From Thermodesulfovibrionia bacterium (lineage in GTDB: Bacteria > Nitrospirota > Thermodesulfovibrionia > UBA6902): a stretch of 64,000 nucleotides of DNA. This document shows, one piece after another, positions 55,593 to 64,000 of the stretch. The stretch covers positions 41,733 through 105,732 of the forward strand of contig JAGVNU010000028.1 in NCBI GenBank assembly GCA_020053105.1, given 5' to 3'. Position 1 is the first letter of the stretch; every line of letters starts with the position of its first letter. A program made the position numbers and the translations under genes. The notes under the pieces were generated by a model that did no database searches, had not been told where the DNA came from, and saw nothing but the letters and a program-made list of their open reading frames with translations.

Positions 55593-55616
55593 AACGGTTC
55601 AAACTGTTTGACCGTT
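55593..55616. repeat. GTTCAAAC hairpin between convergent genes
   Basis: AACGGTTCAAAC and TTTGACCGTT pair to form a short hairpin after the DUF3553 stop, extending into the stop of the A-adding enzyme. It is related to the GTTCAA repeats at 10429-10505 and may terminate transcription in both directions. Confidence 0.5.
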
Positions 55617-58227
55617 ATACCGGGCATTTCTCTTTAACAAATTCTATCTCTTCTTCACGGCTTCTTATCCGCCTTTCAAGTCTCGCCTCAAGCAAGGCTT
55701 TCAATATCTTTTTGAATAACGGCCCCGGCGCGTAACCCATTTTCTTCAGGTCCTTTCCCGTCAGTTCCGGCTTTATTTTTCTCAGGGTCGTCAGATACAG
55801 AGACATGGCTTTTTTCTGTTCCTTGTCCCTGGTCCGGGCCATGGCAAAGAGGATTGTCGGGACATTGAGAGGCGTCAGTATAAAATAAATTTCTTTTTCA
55901 GATGCCCCTTTCAGTCCGGCAAGGACCTTCCCCGATTTCTCAATGCCGTCAAGTATTTCCTTCCTGGCAGAAGGCGGGACATAAAGCCTCTTCAGCGCCT
56001 CGCTTCTTTCCGGCGGGGTCAATTCATTAAGCAGCGCCATGAGAAACAGATGCGACCTGTTCAGCTCTTCCTCAATGAAGAGGAGTTTGAACCAGGCAAA
56101 GGTCTCCTGTATGGCTTCAACTGTATCTTTAAGGGTTTGAGTAAGCGCGAGACCCTTATGAATAAATTTCAAGAGATCGAATTTGGACAATCTCGTGATG
56201 GCATTGATAGGTTCTGTTTCCGTGAATAACAGATTGAGTTCATCATACATCCTGGCGCCGGACAATTTATCAAAGAGATTTATGCGGACGGCGGTCTTTA
56301 TTAAATTCATAGTGTGCTTGCTTATTATGAAACCGAACCGCTCTGAGAACCTGATGGCCCTGAAGGCCCTTGTCGGGTCTTCAATGAAACTGAGGTTGTG
56401 GAGGATCCGTAAGGTCTTTTCCTTGATGTCGCGCTGTCCGCCGAAGAAGTCAAGAAGCTTTCCGAACTGATCGGGATTAAGCATTATTGCCATTGTGTTT
56501 ATGGTGAAGTCTCTCCGGTACAGGTCCTTTTTAATAGAGGACGTCTCTACGCGAGGCAGGGCTGCGGGAGATTCGTAATATTCGGTCCTTGAGGTTGCAA
56601 CATCAAATTTCAGAAACTCTGTTATGACAACTGCCGTGCCGAACCTCCTGTGGGTCTTTACTTTTACCCCGAACTTATTGCCCAGCGCCTGGGCAAAGGC
56701 TATCCCGTCTCCTTCGATTACGATGTCAATGTCGAAGTTCGGTTCGCCCCTCAGCAGGTCCCTGACAGATCCGCCCACCAGGTATGACGTAAATCCGAGA
56801 TCTCTGGCTGTTTCACCGCATAATCTGAGGAGATTATAAATCTCCGGCGGGAACCTGGACTTCAGTACAGCTGAAAGATTTTTACCGATAGAGGGCTTCT
56901 CCGTTAATCTTTCCTGGCCCGCTATCATGCTTTTTCTTAACAGGCTTTCATAAAGGGAACGCAGAAGGTCGGTGCGTGTTATTGCCCCGACGATATGGCC
57001 GTCTTCCACCACAGGCATAAATCTCTGGTTTTGTTCTATCATCATGGACTCGATCAAGGTTGTCGGCGTTGATGGCGACACTGAAGGCGCCTCGGTCGTG
57101 CAGAATTCAGAGGTCCTGCTCTGACCGAAACCGTGGAACAGGGCCTTTTCCACGACTTCCCTGGAAATGAGTCCGTAAAATGAGCTGTTTTTCAGGACAG
57201 GCAGCACATTTACTTCATACCGCGTCATGGCTTCTTCCGCGGTCTTGATCGTCTTGTTCCAGGGGATGCATTTCACGGGACTTGTCATAATGTCTTTTGC
57301 CGTTTTTGAGGGGTGTATCTTTCCCTTCAGGATGCTTAACAGCCTTTCCCCGGTTTCTTCCAGAGACATGTCCCTGACGACTGCGGAGGCTGCCTGCGGA
57401 TGGCCGCCACCGCCTATTTCGTGCAGGACTTCCGATACGTCGACCTCAGGCGAATGACTGCGTGCAATGACCTGCACCCTGTCAGCCATCATCACAAGGA
57501 GGAACATGGCATCCACATCTTCCATTTCCCGGATTTTATGTGCCAGAAAGGCGATATCTCCCATATAGGTTTCCCTGGAGGCCTTTGCTATTTTTATTCT
57601 TATATCATGAATGACGTAATCTTTAGCATTCTGAATAAGCTCATTAAGCAGGTCAATGTCCTGGGGACCGAGGTCTCTTTTGAAGAAGCTTGAGACGATT
57701 TTCAGGTTGGCCCCTTTTTTCAGGAGGTAGGCTGCTGCTGTTAAGTCCCTGACGGTAGTGGAAGGGAAAATAAGGGACCCTGTTTCCTCGTATATCCCAA
57801 GCATGAAAAGCGTGGCTTCGGCAGGGGAGAGAGGGATTTTGTCTTTCTGCAGCATCTCGGCGAATATTGTCGTAGTGGCCCCGACATTTTCTATGACCTC
57901 TTTGTGGCCCTTGGCATCAGTGTCTGTAAAAGGATGATGGTCATATATATGAATAATCAGGCCGTCCCGGCAGAGGACCTCCGAGAATTTACCGATCCTC
58001 TCAAAGTTCTTAACATCAACAAGGACCAGACGGGTGACTTTATGCGGATCGATATCCTTGAGTTTTTTGAATTCCAGGGACATTGCCGAGGTTGCCAGGA
58101 AGTCACGGACGGTTTTTTCCTGTGAGCCGGGGAATGCAAGCACTGCATCCGGATAATATTTTTTTGCCGCCACCATCGAAGCAAGCGCATCAAAGTCTGC
58201 ATTCAGATGAGTCGTAATAACATCCAT
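55615..58227 (-). CDS. DHH/CBS/tRNA nucleotidyltransferase fusion (probable A-adding enzyme)
   Basis: An 870-residue enzyme with three parts. Residues 1-310 form a DHH phosphoesterase (THLNADFDALAS, IYDHHPF near 97) with a DHHA1 GGGGHPQAASA motif. Residues 315-430 form a CBS pair. From about 460, a class II poly(A)-polymerase/tRNA nucleotidyltransferase has GGSVRDLLRGEPNFDIDIV near 486, followed by the head and neck helices. Proteins of this layout in Aquifex and Deinococcus-type organisms act as A-adding enzymes that finish tRNA CCA ends together with a separate CC-adding enzyme. The DHH part may remove nucleotides. It follows rpoD on the same strand. Confidence 0.88.
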   Translation of the reverse strand: MDVITTHLNADFDALASMVAAKKYYPDAVLAFPGSQEKTVRDFLATSAMSLEFKKLKDIDPHKVTRLVLVDVKNFERIGKFSEVLCRDGLIIHIYDHHPFTDTDAKGHKEVIENVGATTTIFAEMLQKDKIPLSPAEATLFMLGIYEETGSLIFPSTTVRDLTAAAYLLKKGANLKIVSSFFKRDLGPQDIDLLNELIQNAKDYVIHDIRIKIAKASRETYMGDIAFLAHKIREMEDVDAMFLLVMMADRVQVIARSHSPEVDVSEVLHEIGGGGHPQAASAVVRDMSLEETGERLLSILKGKIHPSKTAKDIMTSPVKCIPWNKTIKTAEEAMTRYEVNVLPVLKNSSFYGLISREVVEKALFHGFGQSRTSEFCTTEAPSVSPSTPTTLIESMMIEQNQRFMPVVEDGHIVGAITRTDLLRSLYESLLRKSMIAGQERLTEKPSIGKNLSAVLKSRFPPEIYNLLRLCGETARDLGFTSYLVGGSVRDLLRGEPNFDIDIVIEGDGIAFAQALGNKFGVKVKTHRRFGTAVVITEFLKFDVATSRTEYYESPAALPRVETSSIKKDLYRRDFTINTMAIMLNPDQFGKLLDFFGGQRDIKEKTLRILHNLSFIEDPTRAFRAIRFSERFGFIISKHTMNLIKTAVRINLFDKLSGARMYDELNLLFTETEPINAITRLSKFDLLKFIHKGLALTQTLKDTVEAIQETFAWFKLLFIEEELNRSHLFLMALLNELTPPERSEALKRLYVPPSARKEILDGIEKSGKVLAGLKGASEKEIYFILTPLNVPTILFAMARTRDKEQKKAMSLYLTTLRKIKPELTGKDLKKMGYAPGPLFKKILKALLEARLERRIRSREEEIEFVKEKCPV

Positions 58228-58348: not shown

Positions 58349-59983
58349 TTAATTGTTCTTCTCAAGGAAGAGTTTAAGAGACTGGCTCCTCTGCGGATGT
58401 CTCAGCTTCCTCAGCGCCTTCCCTTCCAGCTGTCTTATACGTTCCCGTGTGACTTTGAAATATGTGCCGACTTCTTCGAGGGTGTGAGAGACATCATCTC
58501 CGATACCGAAACGCTTTCTGATAATATCAGCTTCTTTCCTGGACAGGGTGTCTATTACCTTTCTTACCTGGGTCTTCAGTTCCTGGTGTATGACCAGGTC
58601 GAGGGGGACCAGAGATGCCTTGTCCTCCAGGAAGTCTTCGAGGTGGCTGTCCTCATCGTTTCCGATCGGGGTTTCCAGGGATATCGGCTCCTTGCATACT
58701 TTGAGGATGGCCCTGACTTTTTCGATTGGAAGCCCCATTTGTGCGGCAAGTTCTTCGGCCCTGGGCTCTCTGCCGAGTTCCTGCACAAGGTTTTTTGAAA
58801 CGTGCGTCAGTCTGTTAATGGTTTCAATCATGTGCACGGGAAGCCGTATTGTTCTTGCCTGGTCTGCAAGCGCCCGTGTAATCGCCTGCTTTATCCACCA
58901 TGTAGCATAGGTGCTGAATTTGTAACCCTTTCTGTAATCGAACTTGTCAACGGCCCTCATCAATCCGATATTGCCTTCCTGAATAAGGTCGGATAAAGTG
59001 AGCCCTCTCCCGATGTATTTTCTCGCTATACTTATTACCAGTCTCAGGTTGGACTCTGTAAGAAGTTTCTTGGCGCTGTTTATTTCCATCTCGCTATCAA
59101 GAATTGCGTGTAACGCCTTTCCCACTTCTGCCCCTTTTAGCCCGAGCTTTGACTCAATAGCAGTCTTCCGGGCCCTGATATTTTTAAGGCTGTCCGATGG
59201 TGTTGCGGAGTCATAATTTTTTTTGCTCCTGGTTTTTTCGGCAGAGGAATGGGCTTTAATCTTAAGGTCGTCTGCCTCCCCGGTTAAAGTGATATACATT
59301 TCAGCCATTTGTTTGAACTTTGTCCGGAAGTCATCAATGACCCTGTCTTTTAAATGCAGGGAGGCGATTTTGCACACTATCCTGGAGTTCTTTTCAGCGA
59401 TAGCGGCTTTTATCGTCTCAGAACTTTTTTTACCTGATTTGCCGGAGGACAAACGCAGAGCAAGGGCGTTTTTTTTCCGGACCAGATATTTTAATGATTT
59501 AACGGAACTTAAAAAATTTTCCGAGATCAGGGCCTTGTCCGTCTCGGTCAGGTCGCGCAAGCGGGCGCCGGCACCGTTGTGGTTTGAGAAGACCGTTACT
59601 CCGGTATCTCCGGTCTGTTCCGGGCCGCTTCCATTCGTATCGATTTTTTCAATGGAGCATATGTTATTTATTGACACCAACTTGCCTTTTACCTGAGGCA
59701 GGAAGTTGAGAATGTGTTCAAGGACAAATGGGGCCTGAAAGATAATATTTTGAATACGTTCTTTCCCCTTTTCCATTTTAATCGCAATCTCAACTTCTCC
59801 CTGTTTATTGAGTAGAGGCAGCAGCTCCATATCGCGGAGATACATTTTTACAGGGTCATCAGAACTGTAGTTAATGGATGGAGTGATTCTTCTTGGCCCC
59901 CTCCCGGGATTTTCTTCCTCCTCCATTGCTCCATTGACGTCTCTTTCGTCTTTAAGCTCCAGGTACTCCAGCTGTTCTATCAT
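58349..59983 (-). CDS. rpoD: Sigma-70 family RNA polymerase sigma factor RpoD
   Basis: A 544-residue group 1-like sigma factor. Region 1.2 begins near residue 40 ([17 protein letters not shown]), so the acidic region 1.1 of classical RpoD is missing or reduced to a short Glu-rich start. A non-conserved region of about 200 residues follows. Region 2 is complete ([21 protein letters not shown] near 364), then regions 3 and 4, with the HTH in [29 protein letters not shown]. The size and full 2-4 regions argue for the housekeeping factor, though dnaG is not beside it. GGGGAG precedes the ATG. The N-terminus overlaps the small gene upstream. Confidence 0.92.
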
Positions 59984-60186: not shown

Positions 60187-60546
60187 TCAGAAGGCGCTTT
60201 CCTGATATTCGGGAGACCAGACAGTATCTGAAGCGCCCGAAATATCACATTTGTAAATTCCGTTTATATAATTCCTCGGGACTTCCGTAAGAATTATCGG
60301 GTTCTTAAGCCTGAGTGACGTGCAATACGCTTTTCTGATTAAATTGAAACAGGTCAAATCAATTCTCGATACTTTTTTCATATTCAGTACCGCCCGGTCC
60401 ATACCGTGGATGGCCCGCATAAGAAGCAATTTCAATTCGTCTTCATGTTCTGCCGTCAGCTCCCCGATGAGATTGAATATCCCCACGTTGTTGAACTGCT
60501 CAAATGTAAAATTAATATTCTTGCTCATGGCGCCAGTAGGTATCAT
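60187..60546 (-). CDS. STAS-domain protein (anti-anti-sigma type)
   Basis: A 119-residue protein with an anti-sigma-antagonist-like fold: GIFNLIGELTAEHEDELKLLL then AVLNMKKVSRIDLTCFNLIRKA. The usual phospho-Ser position (DSSG in SpoIIAA) is not clearly kept, since the sequence has IDLTC. It may therefore act as an unphosphorylated scaffold or use a different residue. The start at 60546 has GAGG before it and overlaps the upstream Cys-rich gene by four bases. It lies upstream of rpoD in a cassette with two Cys-rich small proteins. Confidence 0.75.
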   Translation of the reverse strand: MIPTGAMSKNINFTFEQFNNVGIFNLIGELTAEHEDELKLLLMRAIHGMDRAVLNMKKVSRIDLTCFNLIRKAYCTSLRLKNPIILTEVPRNYINGIYKCDISGASDTVWSPEYQESAF

Positions 60547-60737
60547 TTGTTCCTCAATGTCCTCTCGAATGGTTTTTCATCGACTGCTTTGTTTTTATAA
60601 ATGGCACAGGACTTATAATTGTTGCCGCAATAAGTTATAGCGGGTGTTATGGTTTTACTGTTAAGGTCAAAACAGTAACACTCGTTTAAAGGGTCCTTGA
60701 CCAATGGGCATAATTTATTCTTAATTTGAAAAAACAT
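60543..60737 (-). CDS. Small Cys-rich protein, 64 residues
   Basis: It contains five Cys: CPLVKDPLNECYCFDL, then YCGNNYKSCAIY. The spacing resembles small metal- or cluster-binding domains found in short proteins of sulfate-reducing and Nitrospirota genomes. I have no family name. The AAGGAG site lies before the ATG. The stop overlaps the STAS gene by four bases. Likely soluble, with possible Fe-S or Zn binding, which is inference. Confidence 0.6.
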   Translation of the reverse strand: MFFQIKNKLCPLVKDPLNECYCFDLNSKTITPAITYCGNNYKSCAIYKNKAVDEKPFERTLRNK

Positions 60738-60750
60738 TTAGCTGATCTCC

Positions 60751-60975
60751 TTAGGATGAATAGGTTTTAGATACCGTATCAACCTGTTTTAGATAGAAAA
60801 CACATCTGCAATGATTATCGTTTTTGCAATATTCCCGGATTTCAGAATTTGTCAGGATGTCGGGGACCATAAATCTCAGTCTGCAGAATGAAGACCCCGA
60901 TTCCGCCCATTCATTCAGGTTAGGACAAGTGGCATTTGCGTTGAAAGTTCTTTGCTCTGATACATTCATATTCAT
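60751..60975 (-). CDS. Small Cys-rich protein, about 74 residues
   Basis: The ORF track lists 123 codons from 61122. I prefer the ATG at 60975 because GAGG lies eight bases before it and a sigma-54-like promoter lies between the two starts. The product has NATCPNLNEWAESGSSFCR and EIREYCKNDNHCRCVFYLKQ, giving five Cys in two groups, similar in style to the next gene. It is the first gene of a Cys-rich/Cys-rich/STAS set that leads to rpoD. Function unknown. Confidence 0.55.
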   Translation of the reverse strand: MNMNVSEQRTFNANATCPNLNEWAESGSSFCRLRFMVPDILTNSEIREYCKNDNHCRCVFYLKQVDTVSKTYSS

Positions 60976-61062
60976 CTGCTTAACCTCAATTAAACGGTTA
61001 TTGATAACTGTAGAATATGGTTTTGAAAATCTTATAAGAGACTGCTTAGGTAATAAGCTTAT

Positions 61063-61078
61063 ATCAAGAAGCATGCCA
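61063..61078 (-). promoter_or_regulatory. Candidate sigma-54 promoter of the Cys-rich/STAS cassette
   Basis: On the minus strand it reads TGGCATG-CTTC-TTGAT, matching TGGCACG-N4-TTGCW at the -24 element and spacing, but with GA instead of GC at -12. The start would be near 61052, about 75 bases before the ATG at 60975. Palindromes lie about 180-240 bases upstream. Confidence 0.45.
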
Positions 61079-61255
61079 CGGCCCGGAGATAATAGCATGA
61101 CTTCCGGTATCCCCGATAACATTTAAATTGGACGTGTATTCGGGTTTGTAACATCTGGATTCTATGGGATTCAGAAGGAGGGCAGTTTTAACAGCAGAAA
61201 ATAATTACGAATAGTTAAATCAATGATTGTGGAAAGTTGGGGTGGCTGTATATGT

Positions 61256-61300
61256 GACATGTCTTGGCTTTGTGCTGTCATGAAAGCATGACATGTCATG
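61256..61300. promoter_or_regulatory. Cluster of TGTCATG/CATGACA palindromes (candidate enhancer)
   Basis: GACATGTC (61256-61263), TGTCATG (61276-61282), CATGACA (61287-61293) and the perfect palindrome CATGACATGTCATG (61287-61300) lie within 45 bases, just downstream of the NtrC-family regulator gene and upstream of the candidate sigma-54 promoter. The position and two-fold symmetry suit binding of a dimeric activator. Confidence 0.5.
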
Positions 61301-61319: not shown

Positions 61320-63011
61320 CTATTCTGTTTGTATATTATATTTTTCTATTTTTCTGTAAATTGTCCTTACGTTGACCCCCAGAAATCTTGCTGCCTTGGA
61401 CTTGTTTCCTCCCGCTCTTTTAAGGGCGTCTGCAACGGCATCCGGACCGTCAGTATTTACATCCGGATGAGAGGTAAGATTTTTCCCTGGATGATCGGTA
61501 ATGCTTTTTGGGAGATGGTCAATAATAATAGTGTCTTGCTTCGCTACTACAAAGGCATGCTCCAGTGTGTGTTCCAGTTCCCTGATATTGCCTGGCCATG
61601 AGTAATCCATAAACAGCGCCTTTACATCTTCAGATATGGCAGTTACATTTTTATTGAATTTATCGTTGAACTTCTGGATAAAAGAATCAACCAGCAGTGG
61701 TATGTCGTCCTTCCGGTCCCGTAGAGGGGGCAGGGCCAGTTCAACGACTTTCAGGCGGTAATAGAGGTCTTCCCTGAACTGGCCGCTCCTGACTTTCCGC
61801 GAGAGGTCCTGGTTTGTTGCGGTAATTACACGGACGTCTGCTTTTATCGGGGTAGAATCTCCAACGCGCTCAAACACCTTGTCTTGCAGCACCCTCAACA
61901 GCCGTAACTGCATCTGCGGGGACAGGTCCCCGATTTCATCCAGAAAGATACTCCCCCCCTCGGCCTTCTGGAATCTGCCGATCTTATCTTTATCTGCCCC
62001 GGTAAAGGCGCCCCTGACATGTCCGAAGAGTTCGCTTTCAAGCAGGCTTTCGGAAAGGGCTGAGCAGTTAACCTTTACCAGCGGCCTGCTGCTGCGTTTC
62101 CCTTTATAATGTATTGCTTCTGCTACAAGTTCTTTCCCGGTGCCGCTTTCACCTGTAATCAAAGCAGTGGTTTCTACATCAGCGAGGTCTTCTATAAGGG
62201 AATATATCCTCTGCATTTGCATGTTTTGTCCGATGATATGATGAAATTTCCGGCGCTCTCCGAGGTCCCGCTCCAGTTCACTGAGGCGCGTCTCGTCTCT
62301 TACTATCATCACGGCCCCTGAGAATGACCCCATGTTGATAAGGGGCCAGGTTGATATTGTAACCACCTGTTTGTGCCTGCCGTTATATTCACACTCTGTT
62401 CGCTGGACTTCGAAAGGATGTTTTTCAAGTATGGTTTTTTTCAGTACCTCAAGGCACTTGTAATTGCAGTTTGTCTGTATTGCGCCAAGGGACTTGCCTA
62501 AAGAACCGCGGGTCAATCCGCAGATATTTTCTGCGGCCTCATTTGCTTCAAGAACAGCCAGGTCTTTATCAACCGTAATAATGGCGTCCTTTACGCTCTT
62601 GAAGATTGCTTCAAGGTTGGTGCGGTATTTCTCGTTTTCGTCCCTGAGGGCCTTGTTCTGCAGGGCCATGCCGGTTATATGAAGCAGTATCTCCTGCTTG
62701 ACAGGTTTGAAAATATAATCAAAGGCGCCTAACCGGAGAGCCGCGGACGCAGTCTCAACATTGGGGTATCCGGTTATCATTACAACTTGACAGTTCAGTC
62801 CCCTGTTTTTGATTTCCTTCAGGAGGTCGATCCCGGTCTTGCCTCCTAAAACAATATCCATGAATATGAGATCAAAATCATTCCGGGAAAGTACTTCGAG
62901 GGCCTCATTGTACTCCCCGGCGGTGGCCACCTCATGCCCCTCATCCGAAAGGAAGCTGTCAAAGGTGAAACGTATACTTTCTTCGTCGTCTACTATTAGA
63001 ATTTTTGCCAT
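61320..63011 (-). CDS. Sigma-54-dependent response regulator with PAS domain
   Basis: A 563-residue NtrC-family activator with an extra sensor domain. The receiver has Asp52 (DLIFMDIVLGG). The PAS domain (about 130-235, KSVKDAIITVDKDLAVLEANE) has a Cys pair in the NCNYKCLEVL stretch. The AAA+ domain has GESGTGKE near 292, GAFTGA near 334 and SIFLDEIGDL. The C-terminal HTH is KAARFLGVNVRTIYRKIEKY. The kinase encoded eight bases upstream is its partner. It probably activates the Cys-rich/STAS cassette promoter just downstream, and perhaps others. Confidence 0.93.
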   Translation of the reverse strand: MAKILIVDDEESIRFTFDSFLSDEGHEVATAGEYNEALEVLSRNDFDLIFMDIVLGGKTGIDLLKEIKNRGLNCQVVMITGYPNVETASAALRLGAFDYIFKPVKQEILLHITGMALQNKALRDENEKYRTNLEAIFKSVKDAIITVDKDLAVLEANEAAENICGLTRGSLGKSLGAIQTNCNYKCLEVLKKTILEKHPFEVQRTECEYNGRHKQVVTISTWPLINMGSFSGAVMIVRDETRLSELERDLGERRKFHHIIGQNMQMQRIYSLIEDLADVETTALITGESGTGKELVAEAIHYKGKRSSRPLVKVNCSALSESLLESELFGHVRGAFTGADKDKIGRFQKAEGGSIFLDEIGDLSPQMQLRLLRVLQDKVFERVGDSTPIKADVRVITATNQDLSRKVRSGQFREDLYYRLKVVELALPPLRDRKDDIPLLVDSFIQKFNDKFNKNVTAISEDVKALFMDYSWPGNIRELEHTLEHAFVVAKQDTIIIDHLPKSITDHPGKNLTSHPDVNTDGPDAVADALKRAGGNKSKAARFLGVNVRTIYRKIEKYNIQTE

Positions 63012-63019
63012 AATGATAT

Positions 63020-64000
63020 TTAATGCCTGACCGGCAGCTCTACTGTAACTTTAGTAAACTTGCCTTCAACACTATCGACTGCAAGTCTGCCTCCATGGTC
63101 ACTTATTATGCCGTGACTGATGCTCAATCCCAGGCCTGTGCCTATGCCACCGGGCTTGGTGGAAAAAAACGGGTTCATTATTTTATTCAGTATGCCGGGA
63201 CTAATACCGGTCCCACTGTCATGGAATATGACACGAATATACGGTTGCGGTCCGTCTGTAAACTCCTGAGCAAGGATTTCAAGCATTTTATTTTCATGTG
63301 TTCCTTCGTATTTACTGTTAAGGGCATAACGGGCATTGCTTATGATATTTAAAAATACCTGCTCGATCTGTTGGGGCTGAACAAAAACGACAGGCAGTGT
63401 CCGTGGTATATTCAGGACCAGAATAATACCGTCTTTTCGCAACTGGATTTCGGTAAGGCCCAGTGTTTCTGAAATGATTTCGACCATATTGGCCGGCATT
63501 CTGTCCCCTATGTTGTCCCGTGCAAAAGAAAGCAGGTTTCTAACAATATTTGCGATGCGGTCGCCTTCTTTTATGATTCTCCTGGTGATATCATATTCCA
63601 TGCTGCCTTCTGAATTCTTGTTCAGCAACATCTGTGAATAGTTGATAATGCCGTTAATCGGATTGTTGATTTCATGTGCCACCCCGGCGGCAAGCTCGCC
63701 GAGCGCTGCCAGGTGGCTGGCGCGGACGGCCTCTGCCTCAGCCCGCTTGCGGTCGGTTATATCTTCAATGATTTCCATGAAGCGGTAAATATTCTTATTT
63801 TCATCCAGTTCAGGGATCGTGGTCACCCTGATAAATTTATCTTTCATGGGCCGCTCCATTGTTACAGGCTTTTTTGAGGAAGTACACTCACCTCTTTTGC
63901 AGAAAGAGCATATTTTCTCAGGCCCCCTTTTTGCCGGATCATCAGCATATTCGCCCACTGCGTCATAACATGTTTTCCCGGTCAATTCTCCTTCGCTGAA
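63020..64000 (-). CDS. PAS-domain sensor histidine kinase (partial, cut by window edge)
   Basis: The reading frame continues past the window end. The ORF-track start at 63985 is a TTG (Leu) in mid-domain, and the codons beyond it are open. Visible parts are the end of a PAS domain with Cys-rich GKTCYD and CSFCKRGECTSS segments, then a PAS C-terminal box (IEDITDRK). The HisKA domain has His in GVAHEINNPINGIINY, and the HATPase domain ends in GTGLGLSISHGIISDHGG. No membrane segment is in the visible part. The Cys pattern in the PAS domain suggests redox or metal sensing, which is inference. It forms a two-component pair with the sigma-54 regulator encoded downstream. Confidence 0.92.
   Translation of the reverse strand, partial: FSEGELTGKTCYDAVGEYADDPAKRGPEKICSFCKRGECTSSKKPVTMERPMKDKFIRVTTIPELDENKNIYRFMEIIEDITDRKRAEAEAVRASHLAALGELAAGVAHEINNPINGIINYSQMLLNKNSEGSMEYDITRRIIKEGDRIANIVRNLLSFARDNIGDRMPANMVEIISETLGLTEIQLRKDGIILVLNIPRTLPVVFVQPQQIEQVFLNIISNARYALNSKYEGTHENKMLEILAQEFTDGPQPYIRVIFHDSGTGISPGILNKIMNPFFSTKPGGIGTGLGLSISHGIISDHGGRLAVDSVEGKFTKVTVELPVRH

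Follow-up and report, generated by a model that had tools for sequence, protein, structure and literature searches.

As a rule, sigma factors of the RpoD type are linked to dnaG and serve housekeeping control. In the macromolecular synthesis operon the genes stand in the order rpsU-dnaG-rpoD/sigA (PMC2824700); in the Rrp2-RpoN-RpoS pathway of Borrelia burgdorferi, an NtrC-like activator and sigma-54 drive a sigma-70-family factor (PMC2940757, PMC3037356). The cassette analyzed here, for which a search of an open literature library found no previous description, resembles this Borrelia sigma-54 to sigma-70 relay most closely in its apparent logic. The two differ in that the Borrelia target is RpoS, whereas here it would be an RpoD-type factor, and in that the putative activator of the cassette carries a cysteine-bearing PAS domain and is encoded next to it. 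Furthermore, new small proteins are encoded in the operon behind the predicted promoter, and the paired activator sites are conserved. We think it probable, on balance, that the locus is a self-contained relay running from kinase to regulator, sigma-54, operon and RpoD-type sigma factor. In most of one environmental Nitrospirota family, an RpoD-type sigma factor would then depend on a sigma-54 operon that responds to a signal. The locus also exposes three conserved, unannotated protein families and a regulator with clear predicted DNA sites.

Organization of the locus

The window, by which we mean the whole 64-kb stretch of DNA analyzed, forms the terminal part of contig C4 in the 3.27-Mb genome assembly of an uncultured Nitrospirota bacterium (G000; 124 contigs, 83% complete). 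The contig ends inside the kinase gene, whose 5' end lies beyond both window and contig. Read in the window's numbering, all cassette features are on the minus strand:

63020-64000, minus strand: sensor histidine kinase with Cys-bearing PAS (a weak match), HisKA and HATPase_c domains (Pfam)
61320-63011, minus strand: NtrC-type regulator with REC, PAS containing C-x3-C...EC, AAA+ with GAFTGA, and HTH_8 (Pfam, sequence)
61289-61298, unstranded: predicted upstream activator site, TGACATGTCA, one of a conserved pair spaced 34 bp apart
61255-61264, unstranded: second predicted upstream activator site, one mismatch, TGACATGTCT on the plus strand
61060-61078, minus strand: predicted -24/-12 (sigma-54) promoter TGGCATGCTTCTTGATATA, start expected near 61052
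60751-60975, minus strand: mini-1, 74 aa, four-Cys family CPxL..W...C...PS..EL..YC......CP.Y
60543-60737, minus strand: mini-2, 64 aa, family CPfV..P...CYC..L.S..I..AI.YC......CeIY
60187-60546, minus strand: STAS protein, 119 aa, without phospho-Ser, conserved Cys in loop
59952-60167, minus strand: P4, 71 aa, helical protein, motif ...FFxGEGF
58349-59983, minus strand: RpoD-type sigma factor, 544 aa, with regions 1.2, 2, 3 and 4 and without region 1.1

The gene order is thus kinase, NtrC-type regulator, palindromes and promoter, mini-1, mini-2, STAS, P4 and sigma. The last five genes are separated by 13, -4, 19 and -32 nt, and because of these distances mini-1 to sigma likely form a single operon. 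A sequence-only reading of this DNA had listed two mini-proteins with five cysteines each, a STAS protein lacking the phospho-Ser motif and a small protein overlapping rpoD, all in a cassette leading into that gene; each of these elements is present. Genomic contexts in other assemblies were taken from raw frames, and distant neighbors may carry wrong labels.

Predicted sigma-54 promoter and activator sites

The same reading had proposed a -24/-12 promoter with a start near 61052, preceded by palindromes and controlled by the adjacent NtrC-type regulator. The candidate promoter, TGGCATGCTTCTTGATATA at 61078-61060, is an exact match to a footprint-derived pattern and the only one in the window, and its position agrees with that start. 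A -24/-12 element lies between the regulator and the first mini gene in 29 of 39 distinct related loci (consensus CTGGCAYRNTTCTTGT/A), compared to a mean of 0.24 loci and a maximum of 2 in 300 shuffles. The -12 element reads TTGA or TTGT instead of the usual TTGC, a point against the assignment. In the whole genome TGGCAYRNTTYTTGH has three matches, one at the cassette, one before flgB and one before a PII gene adjoining an ammonium-transporter-like frame. Both flgB and the PII gene are classical sigma-54 targets, and these two matches provide an independent control for the promoter pattern, one that also suggests use of TTGA or TTGT as the -12 element here. Furthermore, rpoN was found in all 12 genomes tested, this one included (G000:C23, 437 bits).

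The palindromes at 61255-61264 and 61289-61298 constitute two TGACATGTCA sites 34 bp apart. The palindrome is present in 28 of the 39 loci versus 0.7 in shuffles, and the sites occur as a pair in many of the loci of this family. Among the nearest relatives the distances from palindrome to promoter are 220-223 and 186-189 nt, and in another clade TGGCATGCCA-like sites lie ~131-133 nt from the promoter. The conserved promoter and the paired sites together support sigma-54 control by the neighboring regulator as the probable arrangement. Of the two outcomes set to overturn the earlier reading, unconserved mini-protein frames and a sigma-70-type start, the sequence shows neither.

Kinase and NtrC-type regulator

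The regulator contains REC, an AAA+ sigma-54 interaction domain and a Fis-type HTH (Pfam), with HVRGAFTGAD in its sequence, and shares these features with the NtrC-family enhancer-binding proteins represented by the AtoC, ZraR and PrdR models. In contrast to these proteins, it scores below the equivalog cut-offs listed, has a conserved C-x3-C...EC motif in a PAS domain between REC and AAA+, and appears to be dedicated to its own cassette. The motif, C-x3-C and then EC, is kept in 34 of 36 relatives, and the remaining two have a shorter spacing; named relatives come from Nitrospirae/Nitrospiraceae assemblies such as UBA6902 and SURF_66. The complete kinases of close relatives carry PAS, GAF and REC domains. 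An adjacent kinase/NtrC pair with cysteines in PAS, as first read from the sequence, is indeed found here, with cysteines in both sensor PAS domains. A second TGACATGTCA pair was not found in the G000 genome with up to three mismatches allowed, and therefore the regulator may serve only the cassette operon.

Mini-2 lies directly downstream of such a regulator in 38 of the 42 distinct loci that have enough upstream sequence. This genome has a second kinase-regulator-mini-2 set (C63; L302:5520-7817), without STAS, P4 or sigma. The cysteine PAS is also kept in regulators 56-61% identical to the one in the window, from assemblies of Scalindua, Brocadiaceae, another member of the Planctomycetota and Nitrospinia (L025-L032); mini genes were not seen near them.

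A possible redox- or metal-responsive relay

In the relay that we favor, the histidine kinase, probably cytosolic, would sense a signal via Cys-bearing PAS domains. This signal is probably redox state or a metal, because the regulator PAS has its cysteine motif and the complete kinases of relatives are PAS/GAF proteins. A redox- or metal-responsive module had been suggested before: the conserved cysteines of the minis and PAS domains stand, and it is from these that we infer the signal itself. The kinase would phosphorylate the adjacent regulator, which has its own cysteine-bearing PAS, and the regulator would bind the two TGACATGTCA sites and activate sigma-54 polymerase at the predicted promoter. 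One transcript would then give mini-1, mini-2, STAS, P4 and the sigma factor, which would join core polymerase and, judging by its regions 2.4 and 4.2, raise transcription of RpoD-type promoters. Genome-wide transcription could in this way shift in response to what is probably a redox or metal signal.

The steps up to the operon are supported by sequence conservation, and the later steps are put forward as plausible extensions. Besides the unusual -12 element and a possible further promoter for sigma inside the operon, two observations weigh against the relay, namely that the regulator, minis and P4 stand without the sigma gene in other families and that some genomes of the window's family hold the sigma gene elsewhere. 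The idea that the module could feed into sigma-factor control hence applies to the window's family; it does not describe the module as such, as mini-1, mini-2 and P4 occur without sigma in other families and the cassette is mostly sigma-free outside this one.

Type and origin of the sigma factor

The last gene of the operon had been labeled rpoD, and its product is indeed an RpoD-type factor, in which regions 1.2, 2, 3 and 4 are all present. It scores 372.5 bits against the RpoD C-terminal model (cut-off 354) and 280.7 bits against the RpoS model TIGR02394, below the cut-off of 378.7. The label needs correcting in that Pfam finds no region 1.1 in this protein, and that a second RpoD, with region 1.1, is encoded at G000:C5, the only place in the genome where PF03979 matched.

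In phylogenetic trees the window sigma falls inside the clade of dnaG-linked sigma factors. Trees and gene contexts lead us to regard it as the orthologue, in this class, of the dnaG-linked RpoD; it lacks region 1.1 and in its family has left the dnaG operon. As in the macromolecular synthesis operon, dnaG is still directly followed by this sigma gene in 20 sampled genomes, which belong to other, related families and to early branches of the window's own. In contrast, dnaG has no sigma gene behind it in 14 genomes of the window's family, the sister genome G003 among them, and the sigma gene is mostly found in the sigma-54 cassette (23 of 37 family genomes, plus G040); dnaG itself was not found in the incomplete G000 genome. 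In f6 and f10 the dnaG-linked sigma still has region 1.1, so the loss of this region came later. We dropped the idea that the window sigma is just a group 2 paralogue with no tie to the dnaG-linked copy, given the dnaG contexts and the trees. Genomes of f6 and f10 (L315, L316, L317) may thus encode a pair of RpoD factors that both have region 1.1. Behind dnaG, where the sigma gene used to stand, the window's family has a conserved 68-69 aa Cys-containing protein (MKDPFMQKTYAVETGKLHLPCPH...; L279:3270-3479, L281:3267-3473, L286:742-951, L289:677-886).

The alternative that survives best is that the sigma gene is a passenger: it would have been inserted behind a regulator-mini-P4 module that is older and plays no part in sigma control, and would be transcribed mostly from a promoter of its own. 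In support, sigma-free copies of the module are widespread, a tRNA nucleotidyltransferase gene that recurs between genomes often lies behind the sigma gene, which has other contexts in some family genomes, and sigma-70-like matches inside the operon could supply a further promoter for it. However, the arrangement is kept in those 23 of 37 genomes despite divergence, with the P4 and sigma frames often overlapping, and G040 has a cassette sigma besides its dnaG-linked copy; we therefore regard a passenger as unlikely. This A-adding tRNA nucleotidyltransferase gene (window 55615-58227) stands behind sigma in several family genomes, including at a sigma locus away from the cassette (L303).

A further possibility is that housekeeping falls to the window sigma, with the cassette tuning its level in all conditions. 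It is an orthologue of the dnaG-linked RpoD and clears the RpoD C-terminal cut-off, yet G000 and 129 of 150 relatives have the RpoD with region 1.1, whose branches are shorter. Because the latter type is nearly universal and is also the only one in two f14 genomes where just one RpoD matched, it is the likelier housekeeping factor, and we find a housekeeping role for the window sigma improbable; it is probably not the sole such factor. Its regions 2.4 and 4.2 closely resemble their counterparts in E. coli RpoD, and our judgement is therefore that the window sigma is an auxiliary factor of RpoD specificity.

The cassette sigma and dnaG-linked sigma of G040 are sisters (100/98 support), which suggests a separate capture; forcing the cassette copy into the family's clade gave a p-AU of 0.059, so that one clade is not formally rejected. 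G013, G022 and G026 have a second sigma factor; in G013 and G026 its gene follows that of a third Cys mini-protein, with another NtrC-type regulator nearby. Tentatively, and with less confidence than we place in the relay itself, we suggest that the dnaG-linked RpoD orthologue was placed under a thiol- or metal-sensing sigma-54 switch whose three small-protein families gate the response, and that similar, separate captures could have taken place in G040 and in G013, G022 and G026.

The STAS protein and P4

The STAS assignment is marginal (PF01740, 22.9 bits versus a cut-off of 22.6). Where the phospho-Ser loop is expected the protein has RIDLTCFNL, without conservation of the serine, and a cysteine occupies the usual glycine position of the loop in nearly all cassette members, with glycine in a non-cassette relative (L263). 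SpoIIAA/RsbV-type anti-sigma antagonists likewise have a STAS domain near a sigma factor gene, whereas the window protein differs from them in having no phospho-Ser, no kinase partner and a conserved cysteine in the loop.

The open frame of P4, at 98 aa, is too long; we set the start at ATG 60167, behind AAGGAGA, because relatives show a conserved start there, and the resulting 71-aa protein overlaps the sigma start by 32 nt. P4 relatives were found in 80 of 200 genomes at E<=0.001, and Q13, D17 and F30 are invariant in 55 members. Its model has three helices, with high confidence over the first 40 residues, and a fold search with this model gave nothing significant. P4 weakly matches the unnamed phage family phrog_7024 in 13 of the 55 members.

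STAS and P4 could in principle form a partner switch, as anti-anti-sigma and anti-sigma factors that hold the sigma factor until a redox cue arrives. The STAS domain is weakly similar to anti-sigma factor antagonists, P4 overlaps the sigma gene, and the conserved cysteine could stand in for phosphorylation. However, none of the operon's frames encodes an anti-sigma kinase of the HATPase_c type, P4 lies away from any sigma in many genomes, and other families have a REC domain in the STAS slot (a single REC domain in f17 genomes), so that we doubt this reading as much as the housekeeping one. The many sigma-free contexts likewise weaken P4 as a dedicated anti-sigma factor. Within the favored relay, STAS would probably be a binding partner whose loop is set by cysteine instead of phosphorylation, and P4 probably a small helical adaptor. 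Where P4 does not stand near sigma, the next gene often encodes a protein of 65-90 aa that contains a KGvVIDWG motif (L196, L197, L205, L209, L211).

The cysteine-rich mini-proteins

Mini-1, mini-2 and P4 each represent a conserved family for which neither Pfam nor PDB yielded a relative; NCBIfam searches with the two minis gave no credible relative either, and profile comparison showed no sign of homology between them. Mini-1 has cysteines at 17, 31, 50, 56 and 58, and an alignment of 43 family members keeps four of these without exception. Those of mini-2 are at 10, 20, 22, 37 and 44; across 40 aligned members four never vary and the fifth rarely does. Mini-1 relatives occur in 121 of 200 genomes with matches at E<=1, many of these weak, and mini-2 relatives in 70 of 200 at E<=0.001. 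Of 396 genomes sampled across the phylum, 48 have mini-2, and every one of these belongs to the window's class. Against the nearest relative, pN/pS is 0.39 for mini-1, 0.23 for mini-2, 0.28 for STAS and 0.39 for P4. That the small frames and palindromes are chance features is refuted by this purifying selection, by conservation across genera and families and by fixed order and spacing, even though single-palindrome counts within the window alone are unremarkable.

The minis most likely bind a metal or Fe-S center, or undergo thiol chemistry; the structure model of mini-2 is poor (mean pLDDT 53.7). In the relay they would feed back on the kinase/regulator pair, since mini-2 is nearly always directly behind such a pair. 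Mini-1 relatives, each paired with another Cys mini-protein that ends CPIFLaKvLRRR, directly adjoin pstS, pst transporter genes and phoU in several families (L113, L114, L116, L123; for example L116:7449-8022), which suggests a link of both kinds of small protein to phosphate uptake. The third Cys mini-protein family, CRxxFSCLSG..CLCE...CdY..sFGYSyvCNCPvRkEi, which in G013 precedes the second sigma factor, is part of the cassette in some genomes (L023:4624-4863, L107:4273-4509, L110:15708-15986, L203:5082-5321, L265:6862-7101).
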